Assembly (NCBI GenBank): GCA_028712125.1
Contig: JAQTQS010000006.1
Span: forward strand, 1-37,913
Source: Candidatus Altarchaeota archaeon
GTDB taxonomy: Archaea > Altiarchaeota > Altiarchaeia > IMC4 > SCGC-AAA252-I15
Direction: 5' to 3'
DNA: 37,913 nucleotides
In this document: one piece after another, positions 4,285 through 33,747 of the stretch
Layout of the letters: each line of letters opens with the position of its first letter
How positions within the stretch are numbered: the stretch's first letter is position 1
Made by a program: the position numbers and the translations under genes
The notes under the pieces: generated by a model
The model's input: only the letters and a program-made list of their open reading frames with translations
The model's database searches: none
What the model was told of the DNA's origin: nothing

Positions 4285-4758
4285 ATGTTGTTAAGGAGGT
4301 TCTTCGTCGTGTCCGGCAAGGGCGTAAGCAAGAATTCCGGGTTGATGGCATTCGACCGCGCATTGCACGATGCCGGCGTGTCCCAGTGCAACCTTGTCTG
4401 CGTTTCGTCCATACTGCCGGCCGGAGCTAAGATGATCAAGCCGGTGGAAATAACTCCCGGTTCTGTGACGTTTACCGTCCTGTCGAGGGAGGACGGCCGG
4501 GGGGGCGAGGATATCACCGCCGGTATCGGCTGGGTTTTCTGCAGCAGGGGCGGCAAGGACTCCTATGGTCTGGTTGTCGAGGACCATGGCAACAAGAATG
4601 CGGAGGAGTGCAAAAGGGACATCGGGCGCAAGCTTGCGGAGATGGCTGACGCGCGTGAAATGACTGTGGCTGCCTTCGATACCAAAATCGCAACGTTATC
4701 GGGCATTCCAAAGAATGGCTATGGGTGCGTTGTCGCAGCCCTCGTCTATGTCGAATAG
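4285..4758 (+). CDS. pdaD: Pyruvoyl-dependent arginine decarboxylase
   Basis: FFVVSGKGVS, SSILPAGAK self-cleavage region (Ser41-Ser42), GIGWVF..., AAFDTKIATLSGIP. Confidence 0.88.
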   Translation: MLLRRFFVVSGKGVSKNSGLMAFDRALHDAGVSQCNLVCVSSILPAGAKMIKPVEITPGSVTFTVLSREDGRGGEDITAGIGWVFCSRGGKDSYGLVVEDHGNKNAEECKRDIGRKLAEMADAREMTVAAFDTKIATLSGIPKNGYGCVVAALVYVE

Positions 4759-5438: not shown

Positions 5439-6164
5439 TCACAAACCGTACATGCTCTGCAGGCCGGCAATGTCTGGCGATTCCAGAGTCCGCTTCTTCG
5501 TTTCGCCGTTGTTGGAGTAGCCGTACATAGTCACCGCGGTGCACGATTGCGTGTAAAGGTCGCTCAATCCGACAGCGTGGCCTAACTCGTGTGTTGCTAT
5601 GTTCTGCAGGTCCATCAGCGACGAATCGACGGTTGCGTCGCCCCATGTGTAATAAGTGTTGAAGAGTATGTCAAACTCGGTTATCTGCTTTGTTCTCCTG
5701 TTGTACCACACCGAGGTAACCGCTATCACGCCGTTGGTCGGGTAGGAGCCGAATGCGATGGCATTTTTGCCATCCAAGTTCCCATAAGACGCCGTGGTGT
5801 CAATGGTGTATTGGTTTTTGAACAGCTCCTTTGTAGTTGCATCGTCCCACGTTTCGGCAGATGTTGATATCGCTGAAGTTACAAAATTCTCGGTCAGACC
5901 TTGCGGATTAATGGGATTGATAGAATAATTTACCTGTATGCTGCCCAACTTGACTCCCATCAGCTTATAGCACTAGACGGTCTTCTGTCCTGCTCCGTGA
6001 TTGGAGGGCTTTGCGTAGTGGATGAAGTCCACTCGTTCAATGTCCGGATTTTTTGCATTGTCGTTGTCCCTTCCATTGTCGTTCGCCGGGGCCGCCATTG
6101 CGATGGCCGCGTAAAAAAGCAATAAGCCGGCTATGGCCAGATACGCTGTCATGCGCGCATGATT
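5439..6164 (-). pseudogene. Secreted matrixin-type (M10-like) zinc metalloprotease gene interrupted by one in-frame TAG (5973-5975)
   Basis: Signal peptide ORF (MNHARMTAYLAIAGLLLFYAAIAMA...) and catalytic ORF (HELGHAVGLSDLY...MYGYSNNGE) are in the same frame, separated by a single TAG: ...GAGQKTV*CYKLMGVKLGSIQVNY. Could be a pseudogene, readthrough gene or sequence error. Confidence 0.7.
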
Positions 6165-6266
6165 CATTTTGTGCATCACCTGTCCTCTTTGTATTATCAC
6201 TATACGTCTCTTTTGTATTTAAATAATGCTGGCTGGCGATGCCGTTTGTGTGGTATCTGCCTCTGA

Positions 6267-6331: not shown

Positions 6332-6493
6332 ATGACTCGAGACGTAGGGCGCTACCACAAGCTCCCGTGGGGAGGGGGGCAGATAACCATCCCCAAGGAC
6401 CTGGTCAAGGAGATGAGGCTTGAGAACAAGGACAAGCTGTTCATAGAATACGACCCGGTGAAAAAGGAGCTGAAGATAGCCAGGCTTAATTAA
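6332..6493 (+). CDS. AbrB/SpoVT-like small DNA-binding protein (53 aa)
   Basis: MTRDVGRYHKLPWGGGQITIPKDLVKEMRLENKDKLFIEYDPVKKELKIARLN: swapped-hairpin AbrB pattern (QITIPKDLVKEMRLENKDKL). Not in the supplied ORF track. Confidence 0.75.
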   Translation: MTRDVGRYHKLPWGGGQITIPKDLVKEMRLENKDKLFIEYDPVKKELKIARLN

Positions 6494-22570: not shown

Positions 22571-23809
22571 CTATTCGTTAACGGCCTTTGTTTTCGGGAC
22601 GCCTCCGCGTGGGATATTATTGACGCTGCCGTAAAGCGTCCTCTCCTTCCTGCGGATGGCCTTCAGCTTGGCTTCCTCGTCTGCAGGCGCAGACGGCCGC
22701 AATGTCTCGTCCCCCCTTCTTTCGAATAACATCTCGAGCTTGCGGTGTTTTTGGTCAGGCAGGAGGCGCAGTCTCCTCACTTCAAGAAGGCTTTTCAGTC
22801 CGCATATTTCCAAAATCCACATACCCCTTTTCCTGTACTCGAAGAGCGACGAGTTGATTCCCAGCCTTGCCAGCAGTATCTGCATGTCCGCAAAAAGCCT
22901 CGGCTCCTCGCCTTCAGGCAGCGGGGGAAAATTCTTGGTCATCCTCACAGTCGGATGCGCCTTCTCCCGCCCCCTGTCGACGACCGAACTGTTCGCCGCG
23001 AGGAAACCCCTAGCGCCCTCGATGCGCTCGTCCCTGCTCTTGAGATGGCCCCAGGCAAGGCCTTTTTCCCCGTCGGTCGCCTTTCTGAGGTAGTCAAGCA
23101 CTTTTGGGCATTCAAGCTGGAAGGAGTACAGCCCCTCGGGACGCAATGCCGTTTTAAGGTCGTCTGCAGTAGGCGTCTTGCCCAAAAGGCGTTTTGCCTC
23201 AAAGCGCATTACGCCCACAACGCCCGCGTCCTCGTTGCTGACCTTCAGATTGTGGTTCGGCAGGCTCCCCCGCTGTGCGGAGGTGAAACAGCAGAAAAAC
23301 GCGAAGTCAGGGTCTTCCCTGGATGGAATAACTGCGACGCCTTCGGAAACCTGCCTGGCCATGAACTTTGGAGTAGACTTGTTAAGCCAGTTCGACACCG
23401 TGGCCCCGCCCAAACTCAAGCCCGCTGCTTTATTGACCTCCCTTCGCAGCTGCCCTTCGCTGAAATCGCCGCCGGCCTCCAGCCTGGACATCGCGGTAGT
23501 CAATAGCGTCAGATAAGCCCCATGGCTCCTCGTCAGGCTAGCCCTCATCGAATCCTGCCTGTCGGGCTTTATCCCCCGCCTCCTCCATGCGTTTTCCTGC
23601 CTTTCAATGACGGCTTTCAAAGGAGGCGTGCTTTCAAAAAGCTGCCTAACCCTGGCCAGCTGCTCATCGCCGCTAAGCTCGCTAAAATGCCTCAAAACAG
23701 GACTGTTGGCGGGCGTTCCCCCCACCATTGCATGCTTGACTTCCCTCTGGGCCATATACATTAAATAAACGGCGTTTAAGTAAAATAACGATTCAGCCAA
23801 GGCATGCAT
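22571..23809 (-). CDS. Orphan protein: HTH-like segment followed by degenerate LAGLIDADG-like region (tentative)
   Basis: LRREVNKAAGLSLGGATVSNWLNKS (HTH-like); NHNLKVSNEDAGVVGVMRFEAKRLLG and ERIEGARGFLAANSSVVDRG...PTVRMTKN...LFADMQILLARLGINSSLFEYRKRGMWILEICGLKSLLEVRRL resemble LAGLIDADG repeat spacing without canonical acidic residues. Confidence 0.45.
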   Translation of the reverse strand: MHALAESLFYLNAVYLMYMAQREVKHAMVGGTPANSPVLRHFSELSGDEQLARVRQLFESTPPLKAVIERQENAWRRRGIKPDRQDSMRASLTRSHGAYLTLLTTAMSRLEAGGDFSEGQLRREVNKAAGLSLGGATVSNWLNKSTPKFMARQVSEGVAVIPSREDPDFAFFCCFTSAQRGSLPNHNLKVSNEDAGVVGVMRFEAKRLLGKTPTADDLKTALRPEGLYSFQLECPKVLDYLRKATDGEKGLAWGHLKSRDERIEGARGFLAANSSVVDRGREKAHPTVRMTKNFPPLPEGEEPRLFADMQILLARLGINSSLFEYRKRGMWILEICGLKSLLEVRRLRLLPDQKHRKLEMLFERRGDETLRPSAPADEEAKLKAIRRKERTLYGSVNNIPRGGVPKTKAVNE

Positions 23810-31374: not shown

Positions 31375-33747
31375 ATGGCAGAGATTGGTCGTTTACCCAA
31401 AATAATTCTTTTAAGCTCTTTTACCCCTTACCTTGCCTTAATTTCCGTCGCGCTTGTACTGCTAATGGGCGGTTGTATCCAACAGCAACAGGAGGAAACA
31501 ACCACACTACCACAAACAACTACTACAATAGCCCAGCCCACTACCACAAGCCCCCCGACATTAGCCACGACCACCACGACACTGCCCGCACTCCCCGAAA
31601 AGCAACCGTCCGGAAGCCTTCAATTGGCAATGGCCTCTTATTACCAATCGGTTTCGTATTCGATAGACCCTAAAGTCCCGCAGTACAACCTTCCTTTGGA
31701 CCTGAGCTTGGTTGAGAACCTTGATGAAGTATCCTCAAAACTCAGCCTTGACGACAACGAGAAGGCCCTACTCAGGAACAACGGTTTTGTGGTGATAGAC
31801 TACGGCCGTCAGGAGGATATAATACAGCCTTACAAGAATATGAAAGCGGGCGGTATAGTCCTCATAGGTGTGGCTAGCAAGGATGATGGCGTTCCTATCT
31901 TCGTGACGTCCGACACCCTCCTCCATCTATACCACATACAATTCGACGAGACGCTCAAGGACGTCGAAGAGAGGGAGTTCTACGGCGATATTACTGTAAT
32001 CAGTGAAACGTTGATGGAAAAATCTATCAGCGACTACCAGAAGTACACAGGAGACTTGAAAGAAGCCGCAAGGAGGAACGTCGCTTATTTCGCAGTCGGC
32101 CTTAAACTCCTGAACCCAAACGCTTCTGTGCCCGATTACGTCAAAAACGAGGTCGACACCGAGCTAGGGCAAATCGAAGCACACCAAGGATTCGCCCCAA
32201 GTGCTATATTCAAATACAACGAAGACTACAGCCAATACATACCACGAGGCCATTACACCCGAAGTGAAAACCTGAAAAAATACTTCAAGGCGATGATGTG
32301 GTACGGGCGCATTGGATTCCTGCTGAAAGGCTGTGAGGGTTGTCTTGTATCGGAAGAAGACGCCAAAACACAGACGATGCAAGCCGCCTTGCTGACGACT
32401 TACCTAAAAGAGAAAACCAAAGGCAAGGAAACGATAGGCGGCATCTGGGACCGGATGTATGCAGTAACTGCCTACTTCGTAGGACTTGCAGACGATTTGA
32501 CGCTCTACGAATACAACAGTTCATTATATGAAGTATTGAACAAGCCAATTGATTTAACCAAATTGGATGATGACAACACCATGCTGGAATTCAAGGCATC
32601 ACTAGCAACACTTAGAACGCCTGAAATATATGGGGGTACCGGGAAATGCACGATAAGTCCTCCTGTTACTCCAGAAAAGTTAGACAACTGCCTGGATGAA
32701 AGCAAGGGACTTCGCTTTATGGGCCAACGCTTTATTCCGGACTCTTACATGTTTCAACAGGTTGTGGTTCCTACGGCGGGAATGTATACTGGTTCCGATA
32801 ATCCTTTTACCATGTGCCAGACACAAGGAGGCAATGTGCGCTGCTTCCCAAGAGGCTTGGATGTCATGTACATACTAGGCTCTAAAAGAGCCTTGGAGGT
32901 TCTTGAAAGCGAAGGTGATACTGATTACGAGTTCTACGACAACCAGTCAAATAAAATGCTTGATGAATTCGGTTCATTCAATCAAACGGAATGGAACAGG
33001 AACCTGTACTGGAGCTGGCTGTACACACTCAAGCCGTTATTACAAGAATTTGACCCAAACTACCCTACATTCATGCAGTCTAAGGCATGGCAGGACAAGG
33101 AGCTTAACGCTGCATTGGCCTCTTGGACTGAACTACGGCACGATACTATCTTATACACAAAACAAAGCTATGGTGTCGGGATAGATTCTTTCAATCCACC
33201 CAAGCCAGTGGTTGGCTATGTCGAACCCATCCCGGAGTTTTACTACAGGCTGCTTGCTTTGACGCGTATGACACGCAACGGCTTGGATGATTTACAGGTT
33301 TTGGACGGCAATTCAAGGACCCGGCTGGCTAATCTGGAGAACATTTTAGACAGGCTGTCAAACATATCCATAATGGAATTAGAAAACCAGAAACTCTCCG
33401 AAGGAGACTACGAATTCATAAGGAATTTCGGCGAAAACCTTGAGGGAACCGTCTTGGGAGTCGCAAGAACAGGGACCATAACAACGCTTGTGGCAGACGT
33501 ACACACGGATTCAAATACTAACCAGGTTCTGGAAGAAGGAGTGGGTTACGTTGACCTCATAGTCGTAGCCTACAAGCTTCCGGACGGCAGAATACTTGTG
33601 GGCGCAGGGCCGGTGATGTCCTACTACGAATTCAAGCACCCGATGAACGACCGGCTTACGGACGAGAAATGGCGGCAGATGTTGGCTGAAAACCCGCCGG
33701 CAAAACCGGAGTGGACGGGCTATCAGGCAGGCAATGCGCTTAATTAA
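31375..33747 (+). CDS. DUF3160-like surface lipoprotein with Thr-rich linker
   Basis: Lipobox-like LVLLMGGC, Thr/Pro linker, FVTSDTLLHLYHIQFDETLKDVEEREFY, YRLLALTRMTRNGL. Confidence 0.75.
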   Translation: MAEIGRLPKIILLSSFTPYLALISVALVLLMGGCIQQQQEETTTLPQTTTTIAQPTTTSPPTLATTTTTLPALPEKQPSGSLQLAMASYYQSVSYSIDPKVPQYNLPLDLSLVENLDEVSSKLSLDDNEKALLRNNGFVVIDYGRQEDIIQPYKNMKAGGIVLIGVASKDDGVPIFVTSDTLLHLYHIQFDETLKDVEEREFYGDITVISETLMEKSISDYQKYTGDLKEAARRNVAYFAVGLKLLNPNASVPDYVKNEVDTELGQIEAHQGFAPSAIFKYNEDYSQYIPRGHYTRSENLKKYFKAMMWYGRIGFLLKGCEGCLVSEEDAKTQTMQAALLTTYLKEKTKGKETIGGIWDRMYAVTAYFVGLADDLTLYEYNSSLYEVLNKPIDLTKLDDDNTMLEFKASLATLRTPEIYGGTGKCTISPPVTPEKLDNCLDESKGLRFMGQRFIPDSYMFQQVVVPTAGMYTGSDNPFTMCQTQGGNVRCFPRGLDVMYILGSKRALEVLESEGDTDYEFYDNQSNKMLDEFGSFNQTEWNRNLYWSWLYTLKPLLQEFDPNYPTFMQSKAWQDKELNAALASWTELRHDTILYTKQSYGVGIDSFNPPKPVVGYVEPIPEFYYRLLALTRMTRNGLDDLQVLDGNSRTRLANLENILDRLSNISIMELENQKLSEGDYEFIRNFGENLEGTVLGVARTGTITTLVADVHTDSNTNQVLEEGVGYVDLIVVAYKLPDGRILVGAGPVMSYYEFKHPMNDRLTDEKWRQMLAENPPAKPEWTGYQAGNALN

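Follow-up and report, generated by a model that had tools for sequence, protein, structure and literature searches.

Matrixins (Pfam PF00413), the metalloproteases that include the MMPs and karilysin, carry a HExxHxxGxx(H/D) zinc site and a conserved Met downstream of it. In-frame TAG codons, on the other hand, are familiar in archaea from pyrrolysine-encoding genes of the methylamine methyltransferase type, and the Sifarchaeia, an archaeal class with pyrrolysine, encode PylS, PylB, PylC, PylD and pylT (PMC9723677). The locus discussed here touches on both, and lies in a window of 37,913 nucleotides that makes up an entire contig (C40) of a 97-contig MAG (1.41 Mb, 89% complete), where it is the single copy of its kind in the genome. 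From its sequence, the product is predicted to be a small secreted matrixin-type metalloprotease. The downstream piece of the gene matches Pfam Peptidase_M10 (PF00413; 2.5e-11, 44.1 bits, gathering cut-off 24 bits), among PDB entries the profile matches MMPs and karilysin, and the HExxHxxGxx(H/D) zinc motif is present as HELGHAVGLSD (minus strand, 5559-5591, residues 196-206), followed by the conserved Met in VTMYGY. The window protein has Asp where MMPs have the third His, and it departs from matrixins in general by the ERVDFIHYAK segment that its own family adds before the domain, and by the TAG that interrupts its gene.

On the minus strand a single frame extends from 6176 to 5439, and its sole interruption is the TAG at 5973-5975; no further stops or frameshifts are present in the gene. 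The ATG at 6167 makes the best start: no earlier Met in the frame has a good ribosome-binding site, which here is a Shine-Dalgarno-like GGTGAT read from the sequence at 6175-6180 (minus strand), 7 nt before the ATG. From there, 64 codons (5976-6167, minus strand) specify an apparent signal peptide of ~25 aa, recognised by eye, and the conserved ERVDFIHYAK segment, up to the TAG; the remaining 177 codons and a TGA (5439-5972, minus strand) specify the catalytic domain. The earlier note described a matrixin gene interrupted in frame by a single amber codon, with signal peptide and catalytic module in a single frame, ORF starts 240 nt apart (6200 and 5960) and no need of a frameshift, and all of this holds; a frameshift is in fact ruled out, both parts already sharing one frame. 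Its coordinates were right, apart from a 5′ end at 6164 that falls three bases short of the well-supported start at 6167. The case for one gene in the interrupted frame goes far beyond chance, given the Pfam match, the relatives that align across the TAG, and base shuffles of the downstream piece, only 1 of 5000 of which gave a stop-free result. The structure model is weak (mean pLDDT 62.6) and was used only for placing the stop, which falls in a low-confidence linker. Elsewhere in the window, a short MazE/AbrB-like protein is encoded divergently from the protease (6332-6487, plus strand), no neighbouring toxin gene being recognised, and a 790-aa protein at 31375-33747 (plus strand) consists almost entirely of DUF3160 (696 bits).

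Relatives of the protease in other genomes, at about 52–63% identity, are the same protein free of internal stops. The gene occurs in two genomes of the same family, at 64% and 60% identity and uninterrupted in both, and a scan of GTDB contigs returned 13 loci, all free of internal stops; two of them are contig-end fragments, and one belongs to a genome already counted among the two family members. As had been proposed, relatives were checked for a sense codon at the TAG, and every one that spans the position is a single ORF with a sense codon there and aligned residues on both sides. The column itself is variable but holds small residues, Thr in most relatives and Ser or Val in a few, and is followed by an invariant Cys. 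With residues aligned straight across the TAG, the pieces normally form one protein, and the case named in the note as refuting its reading, relatives with two separate genes, is ruled out. The MAGs of these relatives bear the labels Nanoarchaeota, Diapherotrites or uncultured archaeon, a few of the relatives being in bacterial bins, and the host of the window is accordingly a probable DPANN archaeon. Three close relatives (L012, L014 and L016) come from bins assigned to Parcubacteria, Falkowbacteria and Thermoleophilia, and represent either misbinned contigs or gene transfer. No phage or viral relatives were found. Synteny was sought through the neighbouring arginine decarboxylase, whose relative in genome G004 is on another contig and which has no match in the same-genus genome. 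The protease gene looks dispensable, because no match to it was found in that same-genus genome (78% complete) or detected in most of the phylum.

A ribosome restarting at the ATG five codons past the TAG would, as noted before, make a protease lacking the signal peptide (173 aa, 5439-5960, minus strand), and this ORF does hold nearly the whole Pfam domain. It is nonetheless very improbable that it works as a separate gene for a cytoplasmic catalytic domain: no Shine-Dalgarno-like sequence precedes this ATG, and the Met, although kept in most relatives, is an internal residue in them. Its product would also lose one of two invariant Cys, a pair that suggests a disulfide-bonded exported protein.

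TAG is a normal stop in this genome. It ends 8 of the 35 probable genes of the window, among which the LigT-like phosphoesterase (1112-1657) and the pyruvoyl arginine decarboxylase (4285-4758) terminate just after complete or nearly complete Pfam domains; these are real gene ends, at 1655-1657 and 4756-4758, just as the note had it. In the decarboxylase the Pfam domain reaches to within a residue of the end, and the decarboxylase of G004 ends at nearly the same residue. Internal stops occur in 0 of 17 ABC-ATPase matches in the genome, which, together with the TAGs that close complete domains, rules out genome-wide reassignment of the codon. A 412-aa ORF at 22571-23809 (minus strand), with a weak LAGLIDADG match and possibly homing-endonuclease-like, also ends in TAG.

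In an archaeal gene, a TAG in frame and flanked by conserved sequence does bring pyrrolysine to mind, and programmed insertion of an amino acid was one of the causes put forward in the earlier note. Insertion of pyrrolysine here is, however, the most improbable of the explanations considered. In the genome, 89% complete, PylS matches stay below the cut-off, like those in control genomes not known as pyrrolysine users, and PylD gives no match above it, whereas the Sifarchaeia encode the whole set cited above; the protein is not a methylamine methyltransferase, and relatives have ordinary residues at the column. The proposed search for pylS or an amber suppressor tRNA was thus negative on its first count, and on its second no tRNA with a CTA (CUA) anticodon was found in the incomplete, intron-rich set recovered. 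The recovered set has fewer than 20 distinct tRNA genes, others being possibly multi-intron, split or missing, and most of its members (L022-L030, L042-L054) have introns of ~23 to 144 bases. An ARAGORN ‘tRNA-Stop (TTA)’ at L041 is a chance match (13.6 bits), and the T-arm pattern matches at L043 and L056 yielded no credible tRNA.

In a tRNA set this incomplete and intron-rich a suppressor could have been missed, which bears on the reading in which an ordinary near-cognate or suppressor tRNA reads through the TAG to give some full-length secreted protease. The downstream domain is still constrained, and the TAG falls in a column that tolerates several residues, within the low-confidence linker of the model, all of which would suit such a reading. 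Even so, we consider it unlikely, the preserved downstream part being the one piece of positive evidence for it, and in view of the missing CTA anticodon, the many genes here that TAG terminates, the absence of a stimulatory RNA fold after the stop (z = +1.4), and the fact that no relative keeps a stop at this position. Its narrower form, a natural amber suppressor specific to this lineage that lets a limited amount of full-length protease through, is less likely still by a good measure. Phase variation, also among the earlier proposals, is not supported, since no switchable repeat or slippery tract is found at the TAG, and nearby repeats are only short and weak.

If the stop had been there for long, DNA downstream of it might be expected to drift, and of this there is little sign. 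For the part after the TAG, the window copy and relative L003 differ by a dN of 0.24 and a dS of about 1.3. Measured against eleven other relatives, dN averages 0.293 for the window copy and 0.261 for L003, an excess of 0.03 (bootstrap 95% -0.01 to 0.08) that is not significant. Branch lengths of the window copy are within the family range, and at near-invariant sites it departs as often in total as L003 does. Set against all relatives, its residues around the TAG are unusual, and two otherwise invariant ones just after the stop are changed (W77L and P81Q), which hints at local change near the stop but is not proof. The absence of clear acceleration after the stop implies one of three things: a recent stop, strain variation or an error in the consensus. 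Put differently, judging by substitution patterns, the gene would seem to have been under constraint until recently, or to be so still, or else the stop is not real; the lack of excess dN is expected of a very recent event, and equally of a gene that still works.

If the TAG came from an error in the assembly or consensus of the MAG, or from a chimera of strain variants, the organism's own gene would be intact; this is possible, if rather doubtful. The fragmentation and incompleteness of the assembly, the unusual residues flanking the TAG and the lack of decay beyond it favour an error, whereas the position of the gene well inside its 37.9 kb contig, the absence of any homopolymer, repeat or frameshift at the TAG and the uninterrupted ABC ATPases speak against it. 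In the assembly, a disrupted gene looks no different from a consensus error or a mixture of strains.

Of the causes originally listed, nonsense mutation and assembly error are thus the ones that remain, with low-level readthrough as a less likely third, pyrrolysine insertion and phase variation having found no support. We infer that the TAG truly belongs to the organism and terminates translation here, and we favour a probably ordinary cause, a recent nonsense disruption of a secreted matrixin-type protease gene, with a probability of roughly 0.55. A single nonsense codon would separate the signal peptide/pro-segment from the catalytic domain; translation begun at 6167 would break off after 64 residues, and the exported protease would not be made, or only in traces via basal readthrough. 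As the gene is otherwise undamaged, the stop would have arisen recently, or would be a variant carried by a strain of the population sampled. Against the disruption it must be said that the undamaged downstream part also fits a read-through gene.

A lone disrupted gene has little importance beyond annotation, where automatic gene calling would yield a 173-aa protease that lacks the signal peptide. Were readthrough to be shown, however, it would mean that amber suppression occurs naturally in a DPANN-like archaeon in which no pyrrolysine genes were detected. Like the archaeal pyrrolysine-encoding genes, the locus is a conserved archaeal gene with a single TAG in frame, but it differs from them in that the machinery is not found, TAG is a common stop, and no relative has it at this position. 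Its closest match is with recent prokaryotic pseudogenes carrying a single nonsense mutation, with which it shares the one stop, the intact remainder and the intact relatives, and from which we see no feature that sets it apart.
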